Part shown: piece by piece, positions 515 through 38,175 of the stretch | How positions within the stretch are numbered: position 1 is the stretch's first letter | Layout of the letters: every line of letters starts with the position of its first letter | Origin: Enterobacter sp. JUb54 | GTDB lineage: Bacteria; Pseudomonadota; Gammaproteobacteria; Enterobacterales; Enterobacteriaceae | Length of the DNA stretch: 64,000 nt | Direction of reading: 5' to 3' | NCBI RefSeq assembly: GCF_014298075.1 | Contig: NZ_CP060418.1 | Span: forward strand, 1,798,001 to 1,862,000 | Notes under the pieces: model-generated | What the model was told of the DNA's origin: nothing | The model's database searches: none | Seen by the model: only the letters and a program-made list of their open reading frames with translations | Translations under genes and position numbers: made by a program

Positions 515-1654
515 CTACTGTTCAGTTTCTGCAATCCAGTCGCTTATTTTCGCCTCAAGCTCCATTTTCGTGGTAAATCCGTTATCACCGATCACATGTT
601 CCGCTCTGGCAATTATCCAATCCTGAGTATCGATTTCAGGCTTAAAGCCCGACACGGTCAGATGCATACCCGGGTATAAATCGGCGCGGCCGCGCGCCAG
701 GGTTATCGAAAACTGTGCCGCGCCTTTCTGGAGCTGTATCCATTTTGCCGCAGCTGCGCGCCTGGCCGCCGTTTCGTTCTGATAGGTTTTACGCAAAACA
801 TACACGTTACCTTCAGCGCCCTCCATGTAATCCCCTTCCGGGCGGCTGCTTTTCTCCTCAGCCTTTTTTCTGGCAGTATTTGTTTTTCGCTTAGTGACCT
901 TGACCGGTTTTTTCTTACCGAAATTAAGATCCAGCCAGTACGCCCGCACACCAGTATAAGCATCACGATCGGCAATGCGGAACCTGTGACGATCTCCGCT
1001 GGCACGGGTGATCTCAGCCGATGGCAGCGCCCTACCGGATGCACTGAGGCCGCCCCCAGGCAGGATAAACAGCAGACAGCCATTTTTCACGGTGGCAATA
1101 GCCCCCAACATCTCCGCCATGCGCGTTAAAAACGACATGTCGCTCTCTTCGGTCTGATCCGCATGGTCGATCTCAATGTCGATCAGGGCCTCGCTAATCA
1201 TCGGCATCAGGTCATAACGCCGGGCTATGGCCGATACCACCCGCTCTACCGTCACATCATGCCAGGACACCTCCCGCCTGACGTTCATCTCTTCGCGAAA
1301 ATCAGCACTGTGTGCGGTGATGTCAATAACATCCGGCGGCCCGCTATGCCCCACCTCGTCAACGGTGTAGAGGCCTTTGTAGATCAACGCCTCACCCAGC
1401 CAGCCGATGGACACCGCCAGCTCCGCACCGCGTGGGGGTAAATCCGTTACTCCGTCAGAGTCATCTACTGACAGAGTTAGCTGGTCAGCATCAAAACCGT
1501 TGTTATCTGTAACAGATAGCGAGGTGATTCGGTCGGCCAGTTCAGTCAGGACGCCCCCACCCAGCGTGATACTAAAATCCGGTGTCTTTACGACCTCACT
1601 TAATTTTTCTACATACGCTTCGGCTGTTGTTGTCAGCGTGTCTGCTATCGACAT
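515..1654 (-). CDS. D: Tail/baseplate protein gpD (phage late control gene D family)
   Basis: 379 residues starting MSIADTLTTT. It contains family signatures such as DNRGFDADQ-like (here DNNGFDADQ), the segment VDEVGHSGPPDVIDI and the ADFREEMNVRREVSWHD region. gpD sits at the tail tip and resembles the T4 gp27 hub fold. The start at 1654 follows GGGGGAG closely; an upstream in-frame extension to 1786 runs through promoter DNA and is rejected. In P2 D follows U in one operon. Here D points away from FI-U and is divergent from FI across 154 bp, so it needs its own promoter, probably the shared Ogr box at about 1724. ogr follows on the same strand after 43 bp. Confidence 0.93.
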   Translation of the reverse strand: MSIADTLTTTAEAYVEKLSEVVKTPDFSITLGGGVLTELADRITSLSVTDNNGFDADQLTLSVDDSDGVTDLPPRGAELAVSIGWLGEALIYKGLYTVDEVGHSGPPDVIDITAHSADFREEMNVRREVSWHDVTVERVVSAIARRYDLMPMISEALIDIEIDHADQTEESDMSFLTRMAEMLGAIATVKNGCLLFILPGGGLSASGRALPSAEITRASGDRHRFRIADRDAYTGVRAYWLDLNFGKKKPVKVTKRKTNTARKKAEEKSSRPEGDYMEGAEGNVYVLRKTYQNETAARRAAAAKWIQLQKGAAQFSITLARGRADLYPGMHLTVSGFKPEIDTQDWIIARAEHVIGDNGFTTKMELEAKISDWIAETEQ

Positions 1655-1708
1655 AACTCCCCCGTTTTTTGCTGATGATTCCATGCCCGCGCGCGGGGCT
1701 GAATCCCT

Positions 1709-1741
1709 TTTTGTTGTCAGCGAGCGGGCAGACCGGCAACC
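1709..1741. promoter_or_regulatory. Putative Ogr-binding box of divergent late promoters (D / FI)
   Basis: 33 bp aligned without gaps to 23418-23450 with 26 identities. Both contain TGT-N12-AGA, close to the TGT-N12-ACA element known for Ogr/Delta sites. The dyad is centred at about 1723.5. A -55 spacing puts a plus-strand start near 1779 (30 nt before FI) and a minus-strand start near 1668 (14 nt before D). Identity and spacing are seen; Ogr binding is inferred. Confidence 0.6.
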
Positions 1742-1808
1742 AGGCGACGCCAGCAGACTTAACGTTGAATATTGCCCTGAACTCAAAGAGCAACATGATG
1801 GTGAACTT

Positions 1809-2978
1809 ATGTCTGAAACTCGTTTTCACGGCGTCCGCTCTCGCGAAAATACCGACCTACAGCAGGCAATCAATGACATTGATTCCAGCGTGATTGGTAT
1901 TGTTGCGGTTGCTGATGACGCCGATCCGGAAACCTTCCCGCTCAATACGCCGGTTCTGCTGACACGGGTACGTAACGTCCTCGGCAAGGCAGGTAAAACC
2001 GGGTCACTTTACAAAGCCCTCAAAGCCATTTCCGATCAGTGCAGCCCGCGCGTTGTGATTGTCCGGGTTAAAGAGGCTTCCGGTAACGGCGCCAGCCAGT
2101 CCCAGGCCGTTATTGGCGGAACAGATGGCGACAGCTATACGGGAATGTATGCCCTGCTGACGGCGGAAGCCAAAACCGGCTATCGTCCGCGCATCCTGGC
2201 GGTACCGGACTACGACACCGAGGAGGTAACGTCACAGCTTTGCGTGATTGCCCAGAATCTTCGGGCTTTTGTTTATGCCGGTTGTAACGGCTGCGCGACC
2301 ATGGCGGAGGCTATTGCTTATCGCAAAACCTTCGCTTACCGCGAGCTGATGCTGATCTGGCCTGACTTTATCGCTTACAACCCCCTGACGGATGATAACG
2401 AAACGTTTCCCGCCCCGGCTTACGCCTGCGGCCTGCGCGCCGCTATCGATAACAGCCAGGGCTGGCACAAATCGCTGTCGAATGTTGTGGTGAATAACGT
2501 TCTCGGTATTTCGAAGGATGTTTTCTGGGCATTACAGGCAGAAGACAGCGACGCGAACGAGCTTAACAACAACGAAATCACGACGCTTATCAAGCGTGAC
2601 GGTTTCCGCTTCTGGGGTAACCGCACCACGGACACCGAAACCTACACTTTCGAGGTGTTCACCCGTACCGCGCAGATCCTGGCGGACAGTATCGCGGAGG
2701 CGCAATTTACCTCTGTTGACAGCCCGCTCACTCCGGCCAACGTGAAAGATGTGGTAAGCGGCATCCGCTCTGCTCTCAGCAAAAAAGTCACTGCCGGCCA
2801 GCTTATCGGCGCTGACTGCTGGTTTGATACGCTGGACAACGGCACCACGGATTTGCGCCAGGGAAAACTGATTGTGCGCTATAGCTACAGCCCGGTCCCA
2901 CCGCTTGAAGATCTGACGCTATACCAGACCTTTACTGATGATTTTTACGAACCGGCGTTCGCGTCGCTCGGGGGTTAA
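1809..2978 (+). CDS. FI: Major tail sheath protein FI
   Basis: 389 residues (P2 FI 396), forming the contractile sheath. Family signatures include ADPETFPLNTPVL, the segment GWHKSLSNV, RDGFRFWGNR and the C-terminal YSYSPVPPLEDLT. The start at 1809 (MSETRFHGV) aligns with P2 FI; upstream in-frame codons read into promoter DNA. It is the first gene of FI-FII-E-E'-T-U, which runs on the plus strand here, opposite to D, ogr and the O-to-H operon. The ribosome-binding site is weak (GGTG). Next gene FII starts 2 nt after its stop. Confidence 0.96.
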   Translation: MSETRFHGVRSRENTDLQQAINDIDSSVIGIVAVADDADPETFPLNTPVLLTRVRNVLGKAGKTGSLYKALKAISDQCSPRVVIVRVKEASGNGASQSQAVIGGTDGDSYTGMYALLTAEAKTGYRPRILAVPDYDTEEVTSQLCVIAQNLRAFVYAGCNGCATMAEAIAYRKTFAYRELMLIWPDFIAYNPLTDDNETFPAPAYACGLRAAIDNSQGWHKSLSNVVVNNVLGISKDVFWALQAEDSDANELNNNEITTLIKRDGFRFWGNRTTDTETYTFEVFTRTAQILADSIAEAQFTSVDSPLTPANVKDVVSGIRSALSKKVTAGQLIGADCWFDTLDNGTTDLRQGKLIVRYSYSPVPPLEDLTLYQTFTDDFYEPAFASLGG

Positions 2979-2980
2979 TA

Positions 2981-3496
2981 ATGGCTATTCCTCACAAACT
3001 GCGGCTTTTTAGCTGCTTTGTTAACGGCGACAACTATCTGGGAAAAGTAACCTCCTTCACCCGGCCCAAACTGTCACGAAAGGTAGAGGACTATCAGGGC
3101 GGTGGCATGCTGGGCGCGGTCGGGGTTGATCTCGGCCTTGATGCTGGCGCACTGGATTCCACCGTTGTTTTTGGCGGCGTCATTAAGGCTCTGTTTCTCG
3201 AATACGGGGCAGAAATTGACGGCACGCGACTGCGCTTTGCCGGTGAATATTTCACTGATGGCGAAAGCCAGCTTGTCGAGGTGGAGCTGCGCGGGCGATT
3301 TACTGAACTCGATGGTGGAGATTCAAAACAGGGGGAAGATACGGAGGAAAGCTACACCTTTAAATCCACCTACTACAAATTCTCCATTGATGATCAGCCC
3401 ATTATCGAAATCGACCTGCTGAACTTCATCTATAAAAAGAACGGTCAGAACATGTTCCCGGACCGCATCACTTCCGCCCTTGGCATGGGCAATTAA
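2981..3496 (+). CDS. FII: Major tail tube protein FII
   Basis: 171 residues (P2 FII 172). It begins MAIPHKLRLF and ends in the family segment FIYKKNGQNMFPDRI. It polymerises into the inner tube within the FI sheath. It starts 2 nt after the FI stop, so the two are probably translationally coupled and made in matched amounts. Length and sequence are ordinary for P2-like phages. Confidence 0.95.
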   Translation: MAIPHKLRLFSCFVNGDNYLGKVTSFTRPKLSRKVEDYQGGGMLGAVGVDLGLDAGALDSTVVFGGVIKALFLEYGAEIDGTRLRFAGEYFTDGESQLVEVELRGRFTELDGGDSKQGEDTEESYTFKSTYYKFSIDDQPIIEIDLLNFIYKKNGQNMFPDRITSALGMGN

Positions 3497-3541
3497 TCAT
3501 CTTTCAGAGGGGGGCAAAGATGCCGCCCGGAGATTTTTAAC

Positions 3542-3859
3542 ATGGTTAAAAAAACTAAAAACCTGTTCACGCTTATGCAGCCAGTAGTTCGTAAAGACAG
3601 TGAGATCGGTCAGGTGGAAATCACCAGCGCCATCAGTCAGGCCGGATCGTTGCGCGGCCTGAATCTTATCCGGGTTGCCAACATGGATGCAGACTCCATC
3701 GCAACATTGTTGACGCGTGTCACCGCGCCTGCGCTGACACAAAAAGAAATCAACGAGATGCACACTCTGGACTTTATCGGGCTGGCAGAGCTGCTGGTCC
3801 CTTTCTTGAATCCGCCGGAGCCTGGAGCGTCGAACGGGGCGGAGACGGAGAGCGAGTAA
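3542..3859 (+). CDS. E: Tail assembly protein gpE
   Basis: 105 residues (P2 E 91). It lies between tube and tape-measure genes, the position of the tail assembly chaperone. It contains QVEITSAISQAGSLRGLNL and a C-terminal helix LDFIGLAELLVPFL. It ends at 3859 in the zero frame. A -1 slip at 3799-3805 extends it through an open frame to 4017, giving E+E' (separate entry), the arrangement documented for P2 and many other tailed phages. Confidence 0.92.
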   Translation: MVKKTKNLFTLMQPVVRKDSEIGQVEITSAISQAGSLRGLNLIRVANMDADSIATLLTRVTAPALTQKEINEMHTLDFIGLAELLVPFLNPPEPGASNGAETESE

Positions 3860-4017
3860 TTACCGTTGCGTTTGACCAGATTGACGATTTGGTTGCTGAT
3901 ATTGCCGTTATTTTTAACTGGCCGCCCTCTGAAATTTTCGGCATGGATCTTGGCGAGGTGATAGCCTGGCGCAAGCGGGCGGCGCTTCGAAGTGGTGCCA
4001 GTGATGAAGAGTCTTGA
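3542..4017 (+). CDS. E': gpE+E' frameshift product (tail assembly chaperone)
   Basis: The -1 frame is open from the slippery heptamer at 3799-3805 to the TGA at 4015-4017, giving a product of about 158 residues. Its E' part includes VAFDQIDDLVADIAVIFNW, PSEIFGMDLGEVIAWRKR and the end GASDEES. WPP and W-R-K/R segments of this kind are typical of E' extensions. E' probably recruits the tape measure protein during tail assembly. The E' end overlaps the tape measure start at 4004. The frameshift is inferred from frame structure and the P2 precedent. Confidence 0.82.
3799..3805 (+). other. Programmed -1 frameshift site (slippery heptamer CCCTTTC)
   Basis: In the E frame the bases read gtC CCT TTC, an X XXY YYZ heptamer. 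After slipping, both tRNAs can re-pair (Pro CCU to CCC, Phe UUC to UUU). It is the only heptamer of this form I found just upstream of the E' frame. P2 itself uses a T-rich site, so the sequence differs while the place is the same. Confidence 0.7.
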
Positions 4018-6979
4018 TATCCGCGTTGCGTTCAGCGCGATCGACAGGTTTACCCGCCCCGTTAATGCAGCCCGCCAGAGCGCGGGCGGCCTTTCCGACT
4101 CCCTCAGAAAAACACAATCCACCCTGAAAGGACTCGATAAGAGCAGTGCCACTTTTCAGCGAATGACCGCTGCCGTCGGCAAAACCGATCGTTCAATCTC
4201 ACGAGTCCGTAACCGGTTTGATGGCTTGTCAGAAGCACAACGTAAAAACGGGACGCTGACAGAAAAACAGCAGGTACTGATGACCCGGCTGGGTGAACGC
4301 CTCGACCGACTGACTGCAAAACGCGTGACGGAAGTTGCTCGCCTTCGAGAAAGCGCATCGGCGTTACGTCAGCATGGCGTGATGCTCTCCGGCAGCAGTG
4401 CCACTATCGGTAACGCGATACGCCGTACCGATCAGCTCAGTCAGTCGCTTGAACGGGAAAAGCGCCAGCTGGCTGCGGTGACTCAGGCCCGAAAACGTTA
4501 TGAGGGCGCACAGCAGATGGCCGGAAAGTTGCGCTCTGGCGGTGCTATAGCATTAGGTACAGCAACCGCTGCCGGGTACGGCGCCGGACGCTTCCTGTCG
4601 CCTGCGGTTGGTTTTGATGAGGAAATGTCAAACGTTCAGGCGCTGACGCGGCTCGATAAAAGTGATTCACAGCTGTCCTCCCTGCGTACTCAGGCAAAAA
4701 AACTCGGCGCTGAAACCGCCTTCACCACGCGCGACGCCGCCAGCGGCCAGGCCTTTCTGGCAATGGCGGGCTTCACGCCTGATGCTATCCGTGCCGCCCT
4801 GCCAGGTGTGCTCAATATGGCACTGGCGGGCAGCATGGAATTGGGTGAAACGGCAGACATCGGCTCAAATATTCTTTCACAGTTCGCCCTCGACGCCGGG
4901 GAAATGGACCGCGTCAGCGATGTGCTGACAGGCACATTTACCCGTACCAACACCACGCTTAGCAGCCTCGGCGAAACAATGAAAGTTGTCGGGCCGGTAG
5001 CGGCAGGACTTGGGATTAGCCTGGAAGAAGCCGCGGCGATGACCGGCACACTGGCGCGGGTGGGTATCCGTGGCAGCGAGGCCGGGACGGCAATGCGTCG
5101 CTCACTCTCCCGACTGGCCTCCCCTACTACGGCAGCAAAGAGAGCGCTTAAAGAGCTGGGTGTAGAAACCGCCGACGCAAGCGGGAAGATGCGTCGCCCG
5201 TTCGATATTCTTCTCGATCTACAAAAGCGTGTCTCCCGTTTCGGTGATGTGGACCAGGTTTCCTTTTTCAAAGACATCGCCGGTGAGGAAGGTTTTACCG
5301 GCCTTCAGTCTCTGGTCAAAGGCGCAGGTGATGGCTACCTTCAGTCACTCTATGAACAAATCGCTGAAGCCCATAAAAACCAGGAGGCGCTCGCCGTCGC
5401 TAACAAGAAGAAAGACAACCTTGGCGGCGATTTAAAGGAGCTGGACAGCGCCTGGGAGGCGTTTCGCATTTCTGTGGCTGAGACAGTGGACGGCCCATTG
5501 CGCAGACTGACACAGGGGCTTAGCCGGGTTATTGGCAGCATTCAAAGCTGGGTAGAAGAAAACCCCCGACTTTCACGAACGTTGTTACTTGCCGGTGGTA
5601 CCGCTCTGGCACTAACCGCAGTAATTGGCGGTCTGTCATTAGCTGCTGGTCTGCTGATGGGGCCGCTTGCAAAGCTCAGGCTGGGGTTTGCGCTGCTGTC
5701 TGGCGGGAGCGGAATCGAAGGTACGGTATCAGCGTTCCGCATATTGAGTGCTGTGGGCGGCATTTCACTGGCAAAAATTAGCGGATGGGGTGCTTTACTC
5801 GGCGGTCTGGCTGGACGCGCCAGCGTATTAACCAGATTGATGGTACCACTGCGCGGCGCGTTACTTGGCGCCTTTACCTCTCCGGGGACGGTGATAAACG
5901 CCCTGTCAAAAGGCGTTGGCGGGCTGGCGCTGCGGCTAACCGGGATCCCTGCTCTACTCGGTATTGTGAAAAGTGGAATTACGGCTCTGGGCGGTGGATT
6001 GTCATTCCTGTTGAGCCCAATCGGTTTACTGGGTGCTGCATTCGTGGCGGCTGGGGTACTGATCTGGAAATACTGGGGACCGATTAAAGCCTTCTTTAAT
6101 GGTTTTTTTACCGGTGTGATCCAAGGACTGGCGCCCGTACGAGCTGCATTTTCCAGGCTGTCTCCCGTATTCGGTGTCATTGGAGACGGTGTCAAAAAAA
6201 TCTGGGACTGGTTCAGGAAATTACTGACCCCTGTTGAAGAAAGTCGCGAGGCGCTGAACAAATGCGCCAGCGCCGGGCAGACCTTTGGAGAGGTTCTGGG
6301 TGCTGCCCTTAGCGTACTGCTTTGGCCACTTCAGAAATTAATGGAAGGCGTTGGTTGGCTGCTGGAAAAACTCGATCTCATCCCCGATGGCATTGAAAGA
6401 GCCAGGTTGGAAGCGGCAAGGCTCAGGGCTATTCCGGTCATGTGGGAATGGGATGAAAAATCCGGGCGCATGGTTAAAAGGGAGTGGCAATGGTCATCTG
6501 AAAAGCCTGCAAGCAAAGGCAGCGCCCCGCCGCCCAATGTGCTCGGGGGCAACTCTGGAACAGAGCGGCGGCTGGGCCAAATCGCGGATAACACCAAAGG
6601 CCTTTTAGATGAGGAAAAGCGCAAACGTATCGGGCCGGGTGACATTGTATTTAAAAATCTCCCTCCAGCCTTTGCTGTGCGTGGTGAATGGCAGCAGTCG
6701 AAGCTTGTCCGCCAGTCTGTCAGCGCTCGCCCGGTTATTGCCGCTGGCGAACCATTGATAAAACATACGCAGGCATGGCAACCGGTACGCCGAAATCAAA
6801 GCACCCACACGGCGGCTGCGGCTTCAGGTTATAGTTTTTCCGGTGATATTCATGTTCATCTGCATGACATTCAGAGCAGCAATCCGCGCGAACTAGCACG
6901 ACTTGTTGGCGAGGCTGTCCGCGCGGAAATTGATAAAAAGCAACGTGCTGCACGAGGTTCGTTCCGGGATAACGATTAA
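4004..6979 (+). CDS. T: Tail tape measure protein gpT
   Basis: 991 residues (P2 T 815). It sets tail length and is threaded through the tube. The N-terminus (VAFSAIDRFTRPVNAA) matches P2 gpT. Residues about 20-170 are polar and heptad-like. A tape-measure core follows (FDEEMSNVQALTRL, AAMTGTLARVGIRGSEAGT), then strongly hydrophobic segments at about 520-720 and a C-terminal region with HVHLHD. The ATG at 4004 is preferred over the GTG at 3992 because it overlaps the E' end. U follows 15 nt downstream. Confidence 0.94.
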   Translation: MKSLDIRVAFSAIDRFTRPVNAARQSAGGLSDSLRKTQSTLKGLDKSSATFQRMTAAVGKTDRSISRVRNRFDGLSEAQRKNGTLTEKQQVLMTRLGERLDRLTAKRVTEVARLRESASALRQHGVMLSGSSATIGNAIRRTDQLSQSLEREKRQLAAVTQARKRYEGAQQMAGKLRSGGAIALGTATAAGYGAGRFLSPAVGFDEEMSNVQALTRLDKSDSQLSSLRTQAKKLGAETAFTTRDAASGQAFLAMAGFTPDAIRAALPGVLNMALAGSMELGETADIGSNILSQFALDAGEMDRVSDVLTGTFTRTNTTLSSLGETMKVVGPVAAGLGISLEEAAAMTGTLARVGIRGSEAGTAMRRSLSRLASPTTAAKRALKELGVETADASGKMRRPFDILLDLQKRVSRFGDVDQVSFFKDIAGEEGFTGLQSLVKGAGDGYLQSLYEQIAEAHKNQEALAVANKKKDNLGGDLKELDSAWEAFRISVAETVDGPLRRLTQGLSRVIGSIQSWVEENPRLSRTLLLAGGTALALTAVIGGLSLAAGLLMGPLAKLRLGFALLSGGSGIEGTVSAFRILSAVGGISLAKISGWGALLGGLAGRASVLTRLMVPLRGALLGAFTSPGTVINALSKGVGGLALRLTGIPALLGIVKSGITALGGGLSFLLSPIGLLGAAFVAAGVLIWKYWGPIKAFFNGFFTGVIQGLAPVRAAFSRLSPVFGVIGDGVKKIWDWFRKLLTPVEESREALNKCASAGQTFGEVLGAALSVLLWPLQKLMEGVGWLLEKLDLIPDGIERARLEAARLRAIPVMWEWDEKSGRMVKREWQWSSEKPASKGSAPPPNVLGGNSGTERRLGQIADNTKGLLDEEKRKRIGPGDIVFKNLPPAFAVRGEWQQSKLVRQSVSARPVIAAGEPLIKHTQAWQPVRRNQSTHTAAAASGYSFSGDIHVHLHDIQSSNPRELARLVGEAVRAEIDKKQRAARGSFRDND

Positions 6980-23503: not shown

Positions 23504-25231
23504 ATGATTCAGGATGCGTTTATTCGATTGCGGGCCAAACAGCTCTACTGGCAGGGGTATCCGCCCGCCGAAATATCCCGGCTGATGGGTATCAACTCCA
23601 ATACGGTGTATTCGTGGAAAAAGCGTGATGAGTGGGACGAGACGACACCGATCAAACGGGTCACGCAATCCATTGACACCCGTCTCTGCCAGTTAAGTGC
23701 AAAGGACAATAAAACCGGTGGCGATTTCAAAGAGATCGATCTGTTAACCCGGCAGTTAAAAAAGCTGGATACCGGGCAGAGCACCACCCTCTCTGGCGTT
23801 AATAAAACCAGTCGTCGCAAGAAGAAAAACCATTTCACCGACGAGCAAATAGAAGCGCTGCGCACAAAAATTATTGACTCACTTGCCTGGCATCAGCGCG
23901 GCTGGTACGAACAGCGAGATCAGCGTAACCGGATGATCCTCAAATCGCGCCAGATTGGGGCGACCTGGTACTTTGCCCGCGAGGCACTGCTGGGCGCATT
24001 GAGGACTGATGTTAAACATGACTATCAGCGCAACCAAATCTTCCTTTCAGCATCCCGTAAACAGGCGCTTCAGTTCCGAAACTTTATCCGTAAAGCGGCA
24101 GAAGAGGTGGATGTTGAACTCAAGGGCGGTGAGCAGATTACGCTATCGAATGGCGCAGAGCTGCACTTTCTCGGGACGTCAGCGGCAACCGCGCAGTCTT
24201 ACACCGGCCACCTGCGATTTGATGAGTTTTTCTGGACCGGTAACTTTATCAACCTGCGTAAGGTCGCCGGGGCCATGGCGACGCTAAAGGGATTAACGCG
24301 CACCTACTTCTCCACGCCCTCCAGCGAAAGCCATGAAGCCTATCAGTTCTGGACCGGTGATCGGTGGAATGCAAAGCGGCCTAAAGCGCAGCGTGTTGAT
24401 TTCGATGTGACCTGGAAGAAAACCCATAGCGGCGTGCTGTACCCGGACAAAACGTGGCGGCAGATCGTCACTATTCAGGATGCCATCAACAACGGCTGGG
24501 ACTATACCGACATTGACGAGATCAGGGATGAAAACAGCCCTGATGAATTTGAAAACCTCTACATGTGCGAGTTCGTCAAAGACGGTGAAAGCGCGTTCAA
24601 CCTGAGTCAGTTGCTGGGATGCGGCGTTGACGGATACGACGACTGGCCGGACTGGAAACCTTTCGCTGGGCGCCCTATGGGCCTGCGTGAGGTCTGGCTG
24701 GGTTATGACGCCAACGGCGGCAGTGGTAATGGTGATGCCGGCGCCCTGTCCGTCACCGTCCCTCCCCTGGTGGCCGGAGGGCGGTTCCGCACGATTGAGA
24801 TTCAGCAGCTGCGAGGCCTTGAATTTGAGCAGCAGGCGGCAGTGATCAAGGAGGCAGCAGAACGCTACAACGTCACCCATATCGCCATTGACGGGCAAGG
24901 CATCGGCGAGGCGGTCTGGCAGATTGTTAAAAACTGGTTCCCGGCAGCTATCTGCTACCAGATGAGCCTCTCATCCAAACGCGCTCTGGTCCTGAAAATG
25001 CTGCAGGTGATACGCGCCGGACGCTGGGAATATGATCGCAGCGAGCAAGGCCTGGTCAGAGCCTTTAACGCCGTCCGCAAAGTCGTTACGCCCGGCGGTT
25101 TCATGACGTACGAGACGGACCGGTCACGCGGCGTGAGCCATGGTGATATGGCGTGGGCGACCATGCTTTCGATTATTAATGAACCGCTGGGCCAGGAAAG
25201 TGGCTGCGGTGGTTTCGCGATGGGGTGGTAA
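23504..25231 (+). CDS. P: Terminase large subunit, ATPase gpP
   Basis: 575 residues (P2 P 590). The N-terminus has an HTH-like DNA-recognition segment (GYPPAEISRLMGINSNTVYSW). An ATPase P-loop variant SRQIGATW follows at about residue 148, with the packaging-type segment LRFDEFFW (Walker B region). The C-terminal part has a nuclease-like fold (DGQGIGEAVW). Start at 23504 is preceded by GGGGGTG. It drives DNA into the prohead through Q. Confidence 0.95.
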   Translation: MIQDAFIRLRAKQLYWQGYPPAEISRLMGINSNTVYSWKKRDEWDETTPIKRVTQSIDTRLCQLSAKDNKTGGDFKEIDLLTRQLKKLDTGQSTTLSGVNKTSRRKKKNHFTDEQIEALRTKIIDSLAWHQRGWYEQRDQRNRMILKSRQIGATWYFAREALLGALRTDVKHDYQRNQIFLSASRKQALQFRNFIRKAAEEVDVELKGGEQITLSNGAELHFLGTSAATAQSYTGHLRFDEFFWTGNFINLRKVAGAMATLKGLTRTYFSTPSSESHEAYQFWTGDRWNAKRPKAQRVDFDVTWKKTHSGVLYPDKTWRQIVTIQDAINNGWDYTDIDEIRDENSPDEFENLYMCEFVKDGESAFNLSQLLGCGVDGYDDWPDWKPFAGRPMGLREVWLGYDANGGSGNGDAGALSVTVPPLVAGGRFRTIEIQQLRGLEFEQQAAVIKEAAERYNVTHIAIDGQGIGEAVWQIVKNWFPAAICYQMSLSSKRALVLKMLQVIRAGRWEYDRSEQGLVRAFNAVRKVVTPGGFMTYETDRSRGVSHGDMAWATMLSIINEPLGQESGCGGFAMGW

Positions 25232-25233
25232 CA

Positions 25234-26286
25234 GTGAAAAAGAAATACAGTAAAAAACCGGTAACCAGCACCTCCGGTTCTGACATTGCGGAGTCACTGA
25301 AGGGCGATCCTGAGTTAACAGCATTCAGCTTTGACGGGCCTTATCCGGTGCGTGATATGGCCGACCTGCTGGACAATCTTTATTGCCTGGATAACGGGCG
25401 ATACTATGAAACACCGGTAGATTTTTATGGTCTAGCTAAAGCGCCACGCCAGAGCGCCTGGCATGAGTCTGCTCTGTACTTCAAACGTAATGTGCTGACC
25501 GGCTGCTTTATTCCGCACAAGCTGCTCAATCGCCAGACCTTTTCCGCGTTTGCGCTGGACTGGTTCACGTTTGGCAATGCCTACCTTGAACTGCCGCGCA
25601 ATCGCCTGGGCGGGCCGCTTCCCTTCAGGCATTCACTGGCAAAGTACACCCGGCGTGGAAGTGCAGACCTCGATCAGTACTGGTTCATCCGGCGCTGGAA
25701 AGAGGAACACTCGTTTAAACCGGGTTCAGTGTGTCACGTTCTGAATCCGGACATTAATCAGGAGGTCTACGGTATGCCGGAATATATGGCAGCGCTGCTG
25801 GCGGCCAGTTTGTCACACTCCGCTGACATGTTCCGCAAGCTGTACTACGACAACGGCTCCCACGCGGGGTGTATTGTCTACATCGGTGCGGGACAGGTTG
25901 ACGACAAAAGCATGAAAACAGTCAAAGAGACACTGACCGGTGCGCGTGGGAAAGGGGCATTTAAAAACGTACTGCTGCATGCGCCAGGCGGCGGCAAGGA
26001 TGGCGTTCAGATCCTGCCGTTTCAACAGATCACGGCTAAAGATGAGTTTATCAACATTAAGAATGCCACCAGGGACGACATACTCGCGGCGCACCGTATC
26101 CCGCCGCAGCTGATGGGCGCCATGCCAGCAGGAAATGGATCGTTTGGGGATATCGAGAAGGCCGCACGGGTCTACGCTATCAACGAGCTGACGCCAGTAA
26201 TGGAGGCCCTGAAGGTGGTCAACGAGTGGCTAGGAGAAGAGGTGATCCGTTTCAACCCTTATGCGTTGCTTTCCCCAGAGAAATAA
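25234..26286 (+). CDS. Q: Portal protein gpQ
   Basis: 350 residues (P2 Q 344). It contains GLAKAPRQSAWHESALYFKRN, DWFTFGNAYLELPRN and RIPPQLMGAMPAGNGSFGD, all P2-portal signatures. The GTG at 25234 (MKKKYSKKP) is preferred because GGGGTGG lies 5 nt upstream; a GTG at 25225 overlaps the P stop and is the alternative. It forms the dodecameric channel for DNA entry. Confidence 0.93.
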   Translation: MKKKYSKKPVTSTSGSDIAESLKGDPELTAFSFDGPYPVRDMADLLDNLYCLDNGRYYETPVDFYGLAKAPRQSAWHESALYFKRNVLTGCFIPHKLLNRQTFSAFALDWFTFGNAYLELPRNRLGGPLPFRHSLAKYTRRGSADLDQYWFIRRWKEEHSFKPGSVCHVLNPDINQEVYGMPEYMAALLAASLSHSADMFRKLYYDNGSHAGCIVYIGAGQVDDKSMKTVKETLTGARGKGAFKNVLLHAPGGGKDGVQILPFQQITAKDEFINIKNATRDDILAAHRIPPQLMGAMPAGNGSFGDIEKAARVYAINELTPVMEALKVVNEWLGEEVIRFNPYALLSPEK

Positions 26287-26761: not shown

Positions 26762-28126
26762 ATGAAAAAGAATAGCGTCAATGGCAGAGTGTTTTTTTTG
26801 CGTGCATGGAATCGTCACTTGTATTCTATTTCGCGCGAGCAAAATATAGCTAGAAAACGTAAAACTGGGCACAAAAAAATTGTCATATCAAATGACGCGG
26901 GATTCATATCTAACCCGATAGTGAATTTCATAGATAAAATTGTTCCGATGAAAAAAGGTATCAGTGGAAAAATAATCTCAAAAAACAAAATAATAGTTCC
27001 AAGAAAATTAAGTTTTTATGAAAATCCAGAAGAATCATTGATATTCATTCACTCTGCCAGTAAATTTATTAGCAGAGGAACAAATAAGTCAGTGACCATA
27101 GATTACACCTCAGCTCAATACAAATGTCTTGGTGCTGAATATCTATTAGGCTTAGCCGTGACTGAAGCTCGGCAATCCAATGTAAACTTTTCTGACAAAG
27201 TTATTATTAATGGCACTTACCCGAAAAAAGAAGCTCACCGTGAAATAATTAAATGCATGGGGATCGTGAAGGAAATGGATGAAGCATCCCCAGGCACAAT
27301 TCTTGACTACACAACAAGAAAAGACAACCCTAAACAAAGAGTTTTTAAATTTGATTCAATTGGGAAAGAAGAAGCGTCTGCATTTGCTCAAGATCGTAAA
27401 AATCACACTGCAGAAAAATTCGCCCAATATATTGACGAATGTTTAAACGACCATGATTTACAATTAAAAGAAAATGCCAGCAAATATTTGACATCATGCA
27501 TGGGTGAGTTATTGGATAATGCAGAAAGACATTGTGGTTTATCACAAAGACCACGATGGTTTGTAAGAGGTTACGTAAATAACAACGCTCATTCCCCAGT
27601 ATGTGAATTAACTATAATTAATTTTGGGAATACAATTGCCGAAACATTTGAAGGCTTACCAGAGACTCATTTCTCATTTAATGAGCAAGTTAAGCCTTAT
27701 GTAAAGAAACATATAAATAAACGAGGCATGTTTAGGGAAGGGTTAGTTACCGTAGCCGCACTTCAAGGACGAGTCAGTTGCAAAAACATTACTGATTCAG
27801 ATAGTTCCGGTACAGGTACAATCGAACTGTTGAAATTTTTCCAAGATATGCATGACAATCTTAGAAGAATTCGTGGTAGTTCTATTGAAGAACCAAAAAT
27901 GTCCCTTATATCTGGTAAAACACATATATCTTTTGATGGTCGTTATCGCCTTATTTGTAAAATCGATGAAGAAGATGATGAAAGTGAAACCTACTCATAT
28001 CCATTCAACAACGATAGTCTTGCAACTGAGCCAGATCGCGCTTATCTTAAGGAAATGACGAACGCCTATTTCCCTGGTGTTATGGTTAATATTCGTTTTC
28101 CTTTACAAAAAACGAAGCGTTCTTAA
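26762..28126 (+). CDS. GHKL-type ATPase, first gene of an unrecognised cargo cluster
   Basis: 454 residues, AT-rich, in the P2 tin/old hotspot. GHKL ATP-binding motifs are visible: N-box GELLDNAERH (248-257; E249, N253), a degenerate G1 box IINFGNTI (285-292, Asn where Asp is usual), a G2-like REGLVTVAALQG (325-336) and SGTGT (349-353). Residues about 60-180 contain VTIDYTSAQYKCLGAEYLLG, which could be a STAS-like fold. AGGG stands 7 nt before the ATG. The next gene (STAS-like) starts 11 nt after the stop. GHKL plus STAS pairing recalls anti-sigma kinase/antagonist switches; in this locus a phage-defence or exclusion role is more likely. I do not recognise a named system. Confidence 0.75.
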   Translation: MKKNSVNGRVFFLRAWNRHLYSISREQNIARKRKTGHKKIVISNDAGFISNPIVNFIDKIVPMKKGISGKIISKNKIIVPRKLSFYENPEESLIFIHSASKFISRGTNKSVTIDYTSAQYKCLGAEYLLGLAVTEARQSNVNFSDKVIINGTYPKKEAHREIIKCMGIVKEMDEASPGTILDYTTRKDNPKQRVFKFDSIGKEEASAFAQDRKNHTAEKFAQYIDECLNDHDLQLKENASKYLTSCMGELLDNAERHCGLSQRPRWFVRGYVNNNAHSPVCELTIINFGNTIAETFEGLPETHFSFNEQVKPYVKKHINKRGMFREGLVTVAALQGRVSCKNITDSDSSGTGTIELLKFFQDMHDNLRRIRGSSIEEPKMSLISGKTHISFDGRYRLICKIDEEDDESETYSYPFNNDSLATEPDRAYLKEMTNAYFPGVMVNIRFPLQKTKRS

Positions 28127-28137
28127 GGAATAGGATT

Positions 28138-28482
28138 ATGAACATGTCTAACGTTACTATAGATTTCAATAAGTTAGTTGGTGCTACAACTAAAAAACTG
28201 TTTGCTGGTAGAGCAAACGGACAAGAAGCATACAATTACTTCAACTTGAAACAATTCAATACCGATGGAAAAGATTTGATATACATTCTAATGCCAGAAA
28301 GTATTGTCGTATCTAGCTCATATTTTTTAGGTATGCTTGAAAAGATAATACCTGATTATTCAAAACCTTCCGACTTTTTTAAGGTCACTATTTTAGATGG
28401 TGAACAATATAAGGAAGGAATGCTTTCAGAATTTGATCGGGCAGTTAAAAGAGGCCTCAGGAAAAATGCACCTTTATTTTAA
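28138..28482 (+). CDS. STAS-like protein (DUF4325-type), cargo cluster
   Basis: 114 residues. The segment LFAGRANGQEAYNYF followed by a strand, VSSSYFLGMLEKIIPDY, fits the STAS-like DUF4325 pattern (FGRANG, then serine-rich helix start). Such small proteins often sit next to GHKL ATPases, as here (11-nt gap), suggesting that one controls the other. Its 3' end overlaps the next gene's start by 17 bp. The exact function is unknown. Confidence 0.65.
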   Translation: MNMSNVTIDFNKLVGATTKKLFAGRANGQEAYNYFNLKQFNTDGKDLIYILMPESIVVSSSYFLGMLEKIIPDYSKPSDFFKVTILDGEQYKEGMLSEFDRAVKRGLRKNAPLF

Positions 28483-29233
28483 ACCTGATCGTTTAAAAAA
28501 AATGACAGTTCTACCTGTCATTTTTTTTTCAATCATCGGTTGTGACAGTTCTAATGTAAGCCGTTACGAAAATATCGATGATTTATCATTTTACAATGAT
28601 GCTGTCAGAAATCTACCGTTAGATGGCATGCCAGATAATAATGCCTATAGTGTGCGAAAACCGAAAGAACTTAATTTCTCTCCAAAGTATTTATCAAGAG
28701 AATCATCGGTTGTAGATATGCAGCATTATGAAATTCCAAATGATAAAAAAAGTGATTTTTACAATATTGTAAAAACTCCAGAATCTAAACCTGACTATAT
28801 AGCTATAGCAATATCATTTCTAGCATTATTAGCATCAGTATTGGTCCCAATACATTTGCAACGCAAGCAAAAAAAAGATGCTATACATGATGGTTTTTGG
28901 CTAAGAGAAGTAATTTTCCCAAAAATAAATGAGTTAATGTTTAAAATCTGCTCTGATTTGAAAGACAGTTTTAATATGAATAACAGTGACTTCTCAAATT
29001 TTTATCAAGATACAATCTCTATTAAAATTGAAGAGTTACATGAGACCTTTTCAATATTAAATAGTTTTCCAAATATGCAAACATCAATAAGCGCCCTTGA
29101 AAATATATGTGACGAACTTGACAACAATATTGATAATCATCAGCTAGACCCTTTACAAACAAGAATTTTAGATGTAACGGAATTTAACACGAAATTAATA
29201 AAAGAGCTTGTGCAAATTCATAAGAAAATATGA
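28466..29233 (+). CDS. Lipoprotein-like membrane protein, cargo cluster
   Basis: 255 residues. A basic N-terminus (FKPDRLKK) and hydrophobic segment end in a possible lipobox, SIIGC (Cys26). A second membrane segment is at 111-131 (YIAIAISFLALLASVLVPIHL), followed by KRK-type basic residues and a C-terminal charged helical domain of about 120 residues, probably cytoplasmic. The ATG at 28466 has AGGA upstream and lies inside the STAS-like gene, so translation is coupled. A membrane protein as the last gene of a sensor/switch pair is typical of an effector. No known family was recognised. Confidence 0.65.
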   Translation: MHLYFKPDRLKKMTVLPVIFFSIIGCDSSNVSRYENIDDLSFYNDAVRNLPLDGMPDNNAYSVRKPKELNFSPKYLSRESSVVDMQHYEIPNDKKSDFYNIVKTPESKPDYIAIAISFLALLASVLVPIHLQRKQKKDAIHDGFWLREVIFPKINELMFKICSDLKDSFNMNNSDFSNFYQDTISIKIEELHETFSILNSFPNMQTSISALENICDELDNNIDNHQLDPLQTRILDVTEFNTKLIKELVQIHKKI

Positions 29234-29496: not shown

Positions 29497-31692
29497 TTAT
29501 CTGGCATAACCTTTGAATGTTTCACACAAGCGCCTTATTACGTTTCTTCTTTCTTTAGCAGGTAATTGGGTTACATCCAGCGGCCCTGACTCTGCATCCT
29601 GAACCAATTTTACCGATAATACTTTATCACTACCTATCCCTCCGCCCTCGCTTTTTAAGGGATAGGGACAGTTATTGCCACGAGTCCAAGGGGCGACGGA
29701 GTCGCCCTGGGCGGCGCTTTCAGCGCCTGGGTTAGCGGAAGCCTTCTTCACCATCTTCCAGGTATGGACATGCGTGCATATTTTGTTTTCCTTACCGGTG
29801 ATTGGCGACCAAATGCCATAAATACGAATCCCGTGATCGCCATAGGTTCCTGGTTCGACTGTCGGCTCGTAGGCGGTATGAATGAGGTAATTTTTGCGGG
29901 GAACAAGTACACCGCCCTGCTTCATAATGTAAGTGGCAAAACAGCCAACATCAGCAGCAGCAAGCACAGCGTCCAGTTTTGGATCCATAAGTACCGGAGC
30001 ACCCGGTTTGCTGGTTTTCATTGCACGAGTTGCCTGCGATGCGAACAATCGTAACTCGCGGTACGCCTGGCGGCCTGGAATCCCAAAAAAACGAAATTGT
30101 TGAACACGGTGCAACGATGCCCACGCAGTGACGTGCTCGGCACTATCACGTAGTGATTTACCCGTCTCCTTGCTGACGGTGTCACCCAGCCCACGCCCAT
30201 CGATGTTTTTACTGACGTACTTTGCAATATAACTGGCCGGAGTCCCCTTTCGCGGGTCTATCAGCTTTGACTTGAAACGAGCGCCAGTGTTATTGCCAAG
30301 TTCGGCACGATCTTCTCGGATAGTGAAACGACGCAGCAGCTCTGTGATTGCACGTCGATGTTTTTTGCGCATAAAACACAATAAATGCCAGTGCACAGTG
30401 CCATCGTGATGTGGTTCGGCTACGCGGACGCCGTACCAGCGCAGCTCTTTTTTGTGCATTGCCTTACGGAATGCCGCAAACGTATCAACCAGATAGTCGC
30501 TGCTTTTCCTAACTGTCGATTGATCCCATGTAGGGTTAGGCTTCCCGTTCATCAGTGTGGCGTGGTACTTAGAAGGACAGGTGATGGTATAGAACATGGC
30601 GCAGTCGCCACGCATTTCAGCTATCAATTCCAGGCCTTTGACACAGGCCATCATCTCATTACGACGGTGCGCTGGATTGCTGGCACTTGCAAGCACCACA
30701 TCCTCCATGTTGAGCGTGTCGCCATCTTCGTTAATCAGATCATGGTTGCGGAAAAAATCCATCGCCTTACGGCGTTGTTCCCGCTTCTGCAACAGGATGT
30801 CATGGCTGACATAAGGTGATGCGTGCCGATGAACAAGGCACGCTGCCCGAAGCAACTCTTCCCGCCATTCGTTGCGGAGTTGCCACAGCTTACGTTGCCA
30901 CCAGTCAGCACAACGCATACGGGCTAGCGCGCCCGGTATCAACTCGTAGTTAATCGGGTTGCGGCGATTATGTTTGCTGCGGAGCGCTTCATAACCCGGC
31001 GGGATAACATCGAGGCGTGACACTTCGGCCGCCACACGACGATAGAGCTCCAGTATTACGATGGGAGAAGCTAATTCATCGGTCAGCATCTCACCGCAAA
31101 GCTGGATAAAAATCATATCAATGTGCGCTGCGACCAGCGTTGAAAGCCGCTTAACCTCCCGCTGATTCAGTTCAGCAAGTCGAAGGAGTTGATCAAGGCT
31201 ATCCCTACCAGCCATGGCCTGGAATGACAGCGACGCCTGGTTAGCACGGACCTTGTCAATCCTCACTAATGAGGGAGTAATGACCTCATTCAGATAGGTA
31301 GGCAAATGGCGCGGATCTTCTGATTTTTCCAAATACTTAATCCTTGTTTCCAGCGGCTTGCGCAGGAAACCAGGCAAGCTGGCGACGTCATCACGAATCA
31401 GGGTAAGAGGATCAACACGATGGAGTTCTGCATGTCGCTTAGCTTTCTCAATCAGCGCATCATTCAATTCGTCATAGTGCCAGGGATCGCAATGTGCAAC
31501 AGAAAAGAGGTACTCTTCTGCTGCACGACTCATTGCTTCAGCCTGCTCGCGTTGATCGCTTTTATCCTGCTCATAAAGAGCAATCCAGACGGCCAGCGCA
31601 GATGGTTTCTGTGCAGGCGCATCAACAGCATAAGGGTTTACTGGCTGCTTTCTGGCATTCCAGCTCCATGCCAGGGATGTGGAGTCAGGCAT
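29497..31692 (-). CDS. A: Replication initiation endonuclease gpA
   Basis: 731 residues (P2 A 761). It contains the His-rich metal motif ([14 protein letters not shown]) and the tyrosine motif [12 protein letters not shown], with two Tyr four residues apart as in the P2 joining reaction. It nicks the phage origin, which in P2 lies inside A, and starts rolling-circle replication. AAGGTGAG precedes the ATG. It is the last gene of the early minus-strand operon, 37 bp after the Dam-like gene. Confidence 0.95.
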
Positions 31693-31729: not shown

Positions 31730-32665
31730 TCAACAAGCCGGCGCACCAAACATTTCGGCATATGTCGCATCCCCCATCACCGCCCCACAGTCCGGGCAAC
31801 CTCCACCACCATAACGACCGCAACCACCACACACGCGAAGAACGCCAATCACTTCACCGGCCATATCGCGGGTTTTGGCGCTAACGGAACGTCGAACTCT
31901 GAAGGCGTGGAGATTGAAAGCGGAGTAGATCTGGCGTGTTTCTGGTGTGTCGCTATTCGAGATGACCGAGCGCGTTCCATGCTGGCGATTAACGTCCAGC
32001 AACGCCGTAACCAAAGCGCGGTGATCATCCAGGGTAAATGGCTTGCCGTAAGCGGTAAAATTGGCTGTTTTGCTAGTCGGGATGTACGGCGGATCGCAGT
32101 AAATCACGGAGTCCAGGCGGTTCCTGACAACGTACGGAATAGAAGTACGAAAATCATTACAAAGAAAGAGCGCGTGAGTATCCAGCGCCTTTTCGGCAAA
32201 TAGGCGCATTTCTGCTTCTGGAAAATAAGGTGCCTTATAGCTGCCAAATGGAACATTGAAACCGCCATCCCTGTTGGTGCGATAAAGCCCGTTAAAGCAG
32301 TGGCGGTTCAGGTATAAAAATGATGCAGCCCACCGTACAACGTAATCATCTGCACACTCGTCATCCCACGACAGGTGGTTGAACAACTTGCGCTCTTCGT
32401 AATAGCTATCTTCGTTATTGCCATTTCTGAATACGTTCCTGGCGATCAGTATCAATCTTTCAGGGTCTTCCCTGAGCGCGAGGAAGAAATTGATCAATGC
32501 GCGATTGCTGTCACAAAGCACATAGCGGCGGTATTCCGTATTCATAAAGACTGTGCCACTGCCTACAAAGGGCTCAATCAAGCAATCGGCTTTAGGTAAG
32601 TGCTTCAGCAGCTCCGGCAACACGCGGGTTTTACCGCCAGCCCACTTAAGAGGTGACTTAATCAT
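31730..32665 (-). CDS. DNA adenine-N6 methyltransferase, Dam family, with zinc-ribbon-like tail
   Basis: 311 residues from MIKSPLKWAGGK. Motif I is PFVGSGTVF, the catalytic motif DPPY (IYCDPPYIP) and the target region between them is Dam-like (RTNRDGGFNVPFGSYK). The last 35 residues add C-x2-C-x7-C-x2-C (CGGCGRYGGGGCPDC), a likely zinc ribbon. It probably methylates GATC, protecting phage DNA or tuning replication. The start at 32665 makes an ATGA overlap with the ParE-like stop and has AGGA 8 nt upstream. Confidence 0.92.
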   Translation of the reverse strand: MIKSPLKWAGGKTRVLPELLKHLPKADCLIEPFVGSGTVFMNTEYRRYVLCDSNRALINFFLALREDPERLILIARNVFRNGNNEDSYYEERKLFNHLSWDDECADDYVVRWAASFLYLNRHCFNGLYRTNRDGGFNVPFGSYKAPYFPEAEMRLFAEKALDTHALFLCNDFRTSIPYVVRNRLDSVIYCDPPYIPTSKTANFTAYGKPFTLDDHRALVTALLDVNRQHGTRSVISNSDTPETRQIYSAFNLHAFRVRRSVSAKTRDMAGEVIGVLRVCGGCGRYGGGGCPDCGAVMGDATYAEMFGAPAC

Positions 32666-32901
32666 TTGCGGCATTCCTGGTTATAGGTTTCATGGGTCAT
32701 CAGTCGCCACTGCTTACCACCGTTTTTGCTGAGCAAACGCCAACGGAGGCCAATGCGGATCACGAGATAGGCGTGTGGCTTGACTCGGGTGTAATTACGC
32801 TGTCCACGAGCAAAGCAATTCAGGGCGGCAAGCGCCCTCTTACAAACCGGCAACGGCGCGTTACAAACAACAGACAGATGCGAATGCATGGCGGCCCTCA
32901 T
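32662..32901 (-). CDS. ParE-like-domain small phage protein
   Basis: 79 residues (HSHLSVVCNAPLPVCKRAL ... WRLLSKNGGKQWRLMTHETYN). The strand-rich basic C-terminal part resembles small P2-like proteins that I recall being grouped with ParE-type toxin folds; I cannot verify this. No antitoxin is next to it. It overlaps both neighbours by ATGA, so it is part of the early operon. Confidence 0.7.
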   Translation of the reverse strand: MRAAMHSHLSVVCNAPLPVCKRALAALNCFARGQRNYTRVKPHAYLVIRIGLRWRLLSKNGGKQWRLMTHETYNQECRK

Positions 32902-35913: not shown

Positions 35914-36927
35914 ATGACAATTAAGAAACTCGATGATGGTCGATATGAAGTGGACATAAGACCTGCCGGGCGCAACGGAAAGCGCATCCGCAGGAGGTTT
36001 GACAAGAAGAGTGAAGCAGTAGCATTTGAGAAGCACACCCAGTTTAACCACCATACTAAAGAGTGGTTATCAAAACCGACAGATAAGCGGCATCTGTCTG
36101 AGTTAATACAGATCTGGTGGAATTTGAAGGGAAAGCACGAGGAACATGGACGGATAAATCGCAATAAGATTGAGACGTTCTGCAGGATGACTAACGATCC
36201 TTGTGCATTTCAGATCACGAAGGCGCTGATAAGTCAGTACTACTCAACGAGAAGAAGCCAGGGCATTAAAGCTTCGACCATAAACCGCGATCTTAATAGT
36301 ACAAGTGGCATGTTCACTGCGCTTATTGAGGCCGAATTGTTCTCCGGTGAGCATCCAATTCGGGGCAGAAAAAAGCTGAAGGAAGAAGTACCCGAAACCG
36401 GCTATCTCACCGAAGGAGAGATAGCCCTTTTACTCTCAAAGCTCGATGGCGACAACAGGAAGATCGCGATCCTCTGTTTAAGCACCGGTGCTCGTTGGGG
36501 TGAAGCTGCACGACTCAAGGCGGAAAACATCATACAGAATCGAGTAACGTTCGTTAAAACCAAGAGCAACAAGCTTCGCACTGTTCCGGTATCAGCAGAA
36601 GTCGCGAAACTCATAGCTGGTGGTAAGCGAGGTTTGTTGTTTACCAGTGCGTCGTATACCGACTTCAGGCAGACACTTCGGGAAGTAAAACCAGATCTCC
36701 CGACTGGTCAGTCTACGCACGCCTTGAGGCACAGTTTCGCGACGCACTTTATGATTAATGGGGGAAGCATCATAACGCTACAAAGGATCCTCGGGCACGC
36801 CCGAATTGAGCAAACGATGGCCTATGCTCACTTTGCGCCTGAGTATTTACAGGACGCCATTTCTCTTAACCCCTTAAGAGGTGGCATTGATGCGGAAAAT
36901 GTCCACATTATGTCCACACTTAGGTAG
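35914..36927 (+). CDS. int: P2-type tyrosine integrase
   Basis: 337 residues, identical in length to P2 Int. The tyrosine-recombinase residues are visible: Arg in STGARWGEAARL, HALRHSFATHF (H-x-x-R), GHARIEQTMAYAHF with the nucleophile Tyr. The N-terminal part (KRIRRRFDKKSEAVAFEKHT) is the arm-binding domain. It inserts the phage between the 18-bp cores. It follows C on the same strand, so both may be expressed together in the lysogen. attR is 85 bp downstream. Confidence 0.96.
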   Translation: MTIKKLDDGRYEVDIRPAGRNGKRIRRRFDKKSEAVAFEKHTQFNHHTKEWLSKPTDKRHLSELIQIWWNLKGKHEEHGRINRNKIETFCRMTNDPCAFQITKALISQYYSTRRSQGIKASTINRDLNSTSGMFTALIEAELFSGEHPIRGRKKLKEEVPETGYLTEGEIALLLSKLDGDNRKIAILCLSTGARWGEAARLKAENIIQNRVTFVKTKSNKLRTVPVSAEVAKLIAGGKRGLLFTSASYTDFRQTLREVKPDLPTGQSTHALRHSFATHFMINGGSIITLQRILGHARIEQTMAYAHFAPEYLQDAISLNPLRGGIDAENVHIMSTLR

Positions 36928-37161: not shown

Positions 37162-38175
37162 ATGTCAGATTTTATTCTTGCTCGTGTTTCGCAAACACTC
37201 GCCAACGAACATTCCCTGGAATTATTAGTTCGGCAGTTGCTTGAGATGCTGGAGCTGGTGACCAGAATGGAGTCGACGTATCTGACTCGTATTGATTTTG
37301 AAGCACAGCGTCAGCTTATTATGTATGCACATAACAGCAGCGTTATGCAGATCCCGGAAGGGTTTTCCGTGCCCTGGAATGATTCATTATGCAAACGAGC
37401 CATCGACGATAACTGCCAGTTCAGCAATGATGTCAACCATCGCTGGCGCTCGTGCATTGCCGCTCAAGACCTGGGGATCATGACCTTCTTCAGCATCCCC
37501 GTGCGCCTCGCCGACGGCTCGCTGTACGGCACGCTGTGCGCCACCAGCCGCGACAAGCAGCCCTACAACCTTGAGGGTGAGCAGGTCATGGGGCTGTTTG
37601 CGAATTTAATCTCTCACTATATTGAGAAAGAGACGCTGGTTGACCAACTGCGCGAGGCCAACGTCGCGTTAGAGATGCACTCTTATACCGATGAACTCAC
37701 CGGGCTGGCGAATCGTCGGGCGCTGTTTAAACACCTGACGTCGATATTTCCCCGCGCCCGTGAGCAGCAGCGTAATATCCTGATGGTCTTTATCGACCTT
37801 GACGATTTTAAAGCGATTAACGATCGCTTCGGTCACCAGTGCGGCGACAGCTTCTTGATTCAGATTGGTGAACGCTTAACTGCCCGCCTTGAGCCTGGCG
37901 ATCTGGTGGGACGACTGGGCGGCGATGAGTTTTTAGTGGTTGGCGCCGAGCGGGATGCCGCGCAGCAGCTGGCCTTTGTCGCCACGCTGCGCCAGGCCTT
38001 AAGCGGGGTGTATCATCTCGCCGGCCACCGGATCGATTATCCTGGGGCCAGCTTTGGCGTTATTGACGTTAATCCTCATAACCAGGATGTCGAAAGCGCT
38101 TTACGTGCCGCCGATGATGCCATGTATCAGGATAAAAAATCCCGTCGCAAAGAAACCTTCCTGTATCTTGATTAA
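37162..38175 (+). CDS. dgcP: Diguanylate cyclase DgcP (YeaP-like), GAF-GGDEF
   Basis: 337 residues (E. coli DgcP 341). N-terminal GAF domain (about 20-160) aligned throughout with YeaP: IARVSQSL-like start, LLEMLELVTRMESTYLT, SLCKRAIDDN. The C-terminal GGDEF domain has the intact active site GRLGGDEFLVV. The residues before it do not form an RxxD inhibitory site. It makes c-di-GMP, which promotes biofilm and represses motility; E. coli DgcP is pole-associated. Gene order (dgcP, yoaK, yoaJ, leuE) is close to E. coli. Confidence 0.92.
   Translation: MSDFILARVSQTLANEHSLELLVRQLLEMLELVTRMESTYLTRIDFEAQRQLIMYAHNSSVMQIPEGFSVPWNDSLCKRAIDDNCQFSNDVNHRWRSCIAAQDLGIMTFFSIPVRLADGSLYGTLCATSRDKQPYNLEGEQVMGLFANLISHYIEKETLVDQLREANVALEMHSYTDELTGLANRRALFKHLTSIFPRAREQQRNILMVFIDLDDFKAINDRFGHQCGDSFLIQIGERLTARLEPGDLVGRLGGDEFLVVGAERDAAQQLAFVATLRQALSGVYHLAGHRIDYPGASFGVIDVNPHNQDVESALRAADDAMYQDKKSRRKETFLYLD

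Follow-up and report, generated by a model that had tools for sequence, protein, structure and literature searches.

A candidate kinase-STAS-membrane-effector switch resembling VapKSC in the cargo slot of a P2-like prophage of Enterobacter sp. JUb54

In the window, that is the whole stretch of 64,000 nucleotides analysed from Enterobacter sp. JUb54 (assembly GCF_014298075.1, contig NZ_CP060418.1, positions 1,798,001 to 1,862,000), three co-directional genes code for a putative kinase (gene 1), a small STAS-like protein (gene 2) and a single-pass membrane protein (gene 3) (Table 1). The open reading frame coordinates confirm the tight linkage reported in a first-pass annotation of this DNA, with 11 nt between genes 1 and 2 and an overlap of 17 nt between genes 2 and 3; an alternative, longer start of gene 3 is possible at 28397. 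The trio is AT-rich, as had also been reported, with a GC content of 33.5% compared with 54.6% in the terminase-portal stretch to its left and 51.4% in gpA to its right. A promoter scan returned 12 sites versus 12.1 in shuffles, so that no promoter is claimed, and a terminator scan returned 3 sites versus 2.3. In six diverged pairs, the proportion of synonymous differences (pS, 0.60-0.85) exceeds that of nonsynonymous differences (pN, 0.12-0.43) for the three genes, of which gene 3 changes fastest, and from this sequence comparison the genes look to be selected as proteins. As pS is near saturation and the synonymous rate (dS) is not computable for several pairs, we claim no ratio; a seventh pair is almost identical and uninformative. 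None of the three proteins has a usable match in Pfam, NCBIfam or PADLOC, and a search of solved-structure sequences gave nothing credible, while genes 1 and 2 match PHROGs families without assigned function.

All motifs named in the first-pass annotation, E249, N253, REGL and GTGT in gene 1 and GRANG and VSSSYFLG in gene 2, are present. The assignment of gene 1 to the GHKL ATPases stands: a SpoIIAB-like GHKL kinase fold is predicted and the N-box residues E249 and N253 are invariant among 14/14 aligned relatives, but the protein is not a GHKL protein alone, as a STAS fold is predicted in front of the kinase domain. The match is qualified by the position of the G1 Asp, which is Asn in all 14 sequences. 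A STAS-GHKL kinase as the first gene is also found in VapKSC, which according to the main text of its description consists of a kinase, a STAS antitoxin and the PIN toxin VapC (PMC13373217, PDB 9Z7O). The kinase, for which single-stranded DNA is proposed as the activator, is proposed to phosphorylate the STAS antitoxin and thereby free the PIN toxin, and protection was shown against one phage (PMC13373217). As far as that text describes it, VapKSC shares with the window trio the order kinase-STAS-effector, the arrangement of STAS followed by GHKL within the kinase and a small STAS or STAS-like protein with serines at or next to the corresponding place. The partner-switch design suggested earlier for the trio fits well with this published system, which has the same first two parts. 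The window trio differs from the SpoIIAB-SpoIIAA and RsbW-RsbV partner switches in that it contains no sigma factor gene, its third part is a membrane protein and gene 1 bears a STAS domain of its own.

The description of gene 2 as STAS-like is supported by profile comparison and by the serine motif, whereas the structural match to STAS domains is weak; DUF4325 (PF14213) scores above the Pfam cut-off in none of 14 gene-2 proteins. Ser60, at which a predicted helix begins, aligns with Ser48 of VapS, the always conserved Ser/Thr position of the VapKSC antitoxin, and is conserved in 23 of 26 family rows, being replaced by Asn in two (L123 and L124) and by Pro in Spirosoma. Ser61, one residue past the VapS serine column, is Ser in every row. 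We dropped Ser60 alone as the kinase site, as Ser61 is the invariant residue; with an invariant serine directly next to Ser60, the odds of a VapKSC-like switch are unchanged by this. An orphan gene-2-like STAS protein is encoded by the jumbo phages AR9 of Bacillus (L032, 3468-3776) and PBS1 (L033, 3489-3776), in neither of which a kinase is annotated next to it. The AR9 protein, which carries a DUF4325 annotation, has Pro at the place of Ser60 and retains Ser61, and the orphan proteins are possibly antitoxin mimics. We did not keep the AR9 protein as an example of a kinase-proof variant, given that the same Pro occurs in the complete Spirosoma trio and that Ser61 is retained.

Gene 3 had been described as a lipoprotein with a transmembrane (TM) helix. 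The helix stands and Cys26 is present, but a lipobox-like Cys is found in only 7/14 gene-3 proteins, even with a loose pattern, and the family as a whole probably does not depend on a lipid anchor at Cys26. In all 14 aligned proteins, the TM segment is followed by [FY]W-x-R-x-V-x-x-P; in a larger set of 20, the core of this juxtamembrane motif is absent solely from the Spirosoma protein. More Lys and Arg residues lie C-terminal than N-terminal to the helix in 14/14 proteins, which points to a cytosolic C-terminus. We found no PIN match for gene 3, whereas the PIN protein of locus L036 scores 5.2e-08. STAS/GHKL pairs are classical signal relays, and 12 of 14 gene-3 proteins begin with an N-terminal hydrophobic segment or lipobox-like site and continue through an extracytoplasmic stretch and a TM helix to a cytosolic domain. 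One might speculate that gene 3 is an envelope sensor, the cytosolic part of which controls the kinase/STAS pair, with this pair acting on a host or phage regulator as in a stressosome. We consider such a sensor role unlikely, as the part in front of the helix is the least conserved (its mean identity to the window protein is 23%, that of the juxtamembrane motif 52%) and an N-terminal signal is missing from the proteins of Spirosoma and L030. Moreover, in the loci read we noticed no DNA-binding or sigma-like output gene next to the trio, although no systematic search was made for one, and the related VapKSC system has its output in the third gene.

Table 1. Coordinates of the trio, its predicted domains and motifs, and the borders of the cargo slot (window positions).
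Feature	Positions	Strand	Details
Gene 1, STAS-GHKL (SpoIIAB-type) putative kinase	26762..28126	+	454 aa
Gene 1, predicted STAS domain	26963..27313	+	residues 68-184
Gene 1, predicted GHKL kinase domain	27332..28114	+	residues 191-451
Gene 1, N-box E249 to N253	27506..27520	+	both invariant, 14/14
Gene 2, small STAS-like protein (putative antitoxin/kinase substrate)	28138..28482	+	114 aa
Gene 2, Ser60-Ser61	28315..28320	+	Ser61 in 26/26 rows, Ser60 in 23/26
Gene 3, single-pass membrane protein, putative effector	28466..29233	+	255 aa
Gene 3, lipobox-like I-I-G-C26	28532..28543	+	not a family-conserved feature
Gene 3, transmembrane helix	28796..28852	+	residues 111-129, Kyte-Doolittle 2.48
Gene 3, juxtamembrane motif FWLREVIFP	28895..28921	+	W-x-[RK]-x-[VI] in 19/20
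P2-type portal gene Q, flanking the cargo slot on the left	25225..26286	+	phrog_68, 3.2e-144
gpA replication nickase, flanking the cargo slot on the right	29497..31692	-	phrog_91, 9.6e-248

The idea of a three-gene module depended on conserved co-occurrence, and this was found. A profile search of IMG/VR with gene 1 gave 17 loci, with genes 2 and 3 directly downstream in 17/17; three of the 17 contigs had also contributed to the profiles. The 22 loci found with gene 2 comprise 16 on gene-1 contigs and six new ones, all of which carry gene 1 and a membrane-protein gene. The latter matches the gene-3 profile in five cases; in the sixth, L129, the membrane protein has no match (E 0.11). In total, genes 1 and 2 are present on 23 IMG/VR contigs and gene 3 on 22, several contigs being near-copies. 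Gene 1 was also found in seven plasmid records, including three Pantoea records with identical match statistics, and the gene order is that of the window in the five plasmid loci read (Vibrio, Pantoea, Salinivibrio, Providencia and Spirosoma); in the Providencia plasmid, gene 1 is unannotated and sits where the circular record ends. In genomes the trio is rare, with 1/20 in the genus and 1/394 in the order, the JUb54 genome itself both times, and 2/369 in the class, again including JUb54. A scan of genome contigs, which detects close relatives only, returned one locus, in Yersinia aleksiciae. No near DNA match to the trio was found in E. coli genomes, nor a distant one to the related trio L037; gene 1 has no match among 50,697 phage records and the gene 3 protein none in plasmid or phage records. 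Pairwise distances of the three genes correlate at 0.92-0.96, which is expected for co-travelling genes and is no proof of binding.

This linkage also bears on a further explanation, in which genes 1 and 2 are a transcription-type control pair regulating a neighbour and gene 3 is an unrelated passenger. The model for it is CapK and CapS, likewise a STAS-GHKL kinase with a STAS substrate in an immune setting, which control immune operons according to the main text of PMC13373217. CapS has a winged-helix DNA-binding domain, whereas the model of gene 2 is by length and secondary structure one compact alpha/beta unit, a single STAS-like domain without space for a separate DNA-binding domain. In addition, genes 2 and 3 of the window overlap, and the 15 loci found with gene 3 in IMG/VR all lie on gene-1 contigs, within a trio. 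We regard this explanation as very improbable.

The trio lies between the portal gene and gpA, with terminase and major head genes to its left and an integrase gene to its right (35914-36924), indicating a P2-like prophage. In phage P2 itself, this slot is occupied by tin and old. As the first-pass annotation had suggested, the slot is a site of variable cargo: Klebsiella phage ST16-OXA48phi5.4 is 87.9% identical to the window from 23500 to about 26562, ending just upstream of the trio, and before its gpA (L090, 9131-12192) it carries genes for a hypothetical protein and a UvrD helicase in place of the trio. This pair is possibly another defence cassette. Window-type portal and/or gpA genes are present in 12 of the 17 IMG/VR gene-1 loci; within the DNA retrieved, neither was seen in L018 and L028-L031. 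On a P2-like contig, L006, a gene for a 1121-aa protein judged by eye to be of the P-loop type (1118-4483) separates the portal gene from the trio, so that the slot is able to hold two cargo units. Defence genes are described as cargo of P2-like phages by Rousset et al. (2022, PMC9122126), the main text of which does not contain the words GHKL or histidine kinase.

At three loci (L028, L125 and L127), genes judged by eye to be lysozyme-type lie directly downstream of the trio, which is another usual cargo site. Together with a related trio near a repressor-type gene in Marinobacter phage AS1, this position could suggest a module for prophage regulation or lysis timing, in which the kinase senses DNA damage and the membrane protein aids lysis or controls induction, with no role in defence. 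We regard this as quite improbable, because the trio fills a P2 cargo slot that has unrelated genes in a relative and is also found on plasmids, where no phage structural genes are annotated in the stretches read (recombinase genes are present in two).

Returning to the comparison with VapKSC, we favour with moderate confidence that the trio is a kinase-STAS-membrane-effector switch of a P2-like prophage, VapKSC-like with a membrane protein as its output. Support comes from the genes, which keep one order throughout, from the STAS and SpoIIAB-like kinase folds predicted for gene 1 and its conserved catalytic E/N residues, the position in the cargo slot, the serine pair of gene 2, and the single TM helix and juxtamembrane motif of gene 3. 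In the resting state, gene 2 would silence gene 3 by binding to its cytosolic part. Infection or DNA damage would activate gene 1, which would phosphorylate gene 2 at the family-invariant Ser61 or at Ser60 in the VapS column. Phosphorylated gene 2 would release gene 3, and the freed protein might damage or depolarise the inner membrane, halting growth before a competing phage finishes its cycle. The precedent of VapKSC and the position in the cargo slot are our basis for inferring sensing, phosphorylation, binding of gene 2 to gene 3, toxicity to the membrane and protection against phages.

The trio does not belong to VapKSC by membership, as its third gene codes for a single-pass membrane protein and not for a PIN nuclease. 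In a kinase tree with long branches, the gene-1 family (19 rows, support 100/99) and the PIN-associated kinases (3 rows, 100/98) lie on separate branches. The trio had been regarded as unnamed, and within the literature and databases searched it is not a named system. It is nevertheless not without precedent, being a variant of VapKSC that, by analogy, would work like it. The word transmembrane does not occur in the main text of PMC13373217, and a literature search covering the main texts of published papers gave no membrane-effector version among the matches listed.

The three-part architecture extends to further loci identified by DUF4325, which is present in 6/148 genomes of the order and 53/369 of the class; we read six loci (L034-L039) and 20 further places. 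Complete sets of kinase, STAS and membrane protein are present at L035, L037, L076, L077, L079 and L081, the partner in L081 having two hydrophobic segments. L082 is probably complete, with kinase and membrane genes and a STAS gene seen as a profile match in an open frame, and at L071 and L086 a STAS and a membrane gene occur with a broken kinase or with none that was seen. Membrane calls at these loci are based on hydropathy, the weakest value being 1.55 (L079). Sets with a PIN protein are found at L036 (called by Pfam), L038 and L072 (by eye), and also at L073 (by eye), at a contig end without a whole kinase; the remaining loci have no evident effector or are fusions. The membrane partners are mostly shorter than gene 3 and have no detectable relation to it; kinship was tested and not found, and the FW residues in common are a mere resemblance.

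With somewhat more doubt than belief, we suggest that these loci and the trio represent an unrecognised class of immune switch, in which an anti-sigma-type kinase directly gates an inner-membrane effector via a STAS antitoxin. In Gammaproteobacteria it would occur on both prophages and plasmids, and in Bacteroidota on one plasmid or more. The effector slot of the wider kinase-STAS cassette would have been filled repeatedly by proteins without detectable relation (a PIN nuclease and membrane proteins of two or more families), and the AR9/PBS1 orphan may mimic the antitoxin to counter such systems. If so, the kinase-STAS switch would be a general control cassette for very different killers, membrane proteins included, used by P2-like prophages. 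It would provide a clear case, open to testing, of a phage defence in which phosphorylation itself sets a membrane effector free. It would also offer a simple rule, kinase, small STAS protein, effector, for finding more effectors.

The AS1 trio mentioned above (L107, 3441-5367) has the same three-part architecture as the window trio and lies near a CI/Cro-type regulator, a position similar to that of rexAB. In Francisella phage KIRK, a 293-aa protein, a DUF4325 protein and a TM protein are encoded beside the repressor, according to its description (PMC7924643). Within the JUb54 prophage, a DNA methyltransferase gene (31733-32674, phrog_56) adjoins gpA, and a 337-aa gene just past the integrase (37162-38172), matching PHROGs of unknown function, is possible further cargo. 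Single-chain HTH-GHKL-DUF4325 fusions are encoded at L034 and L070, and the many long open frames at DUF4325 matches suggest that such fusions are common in the class.
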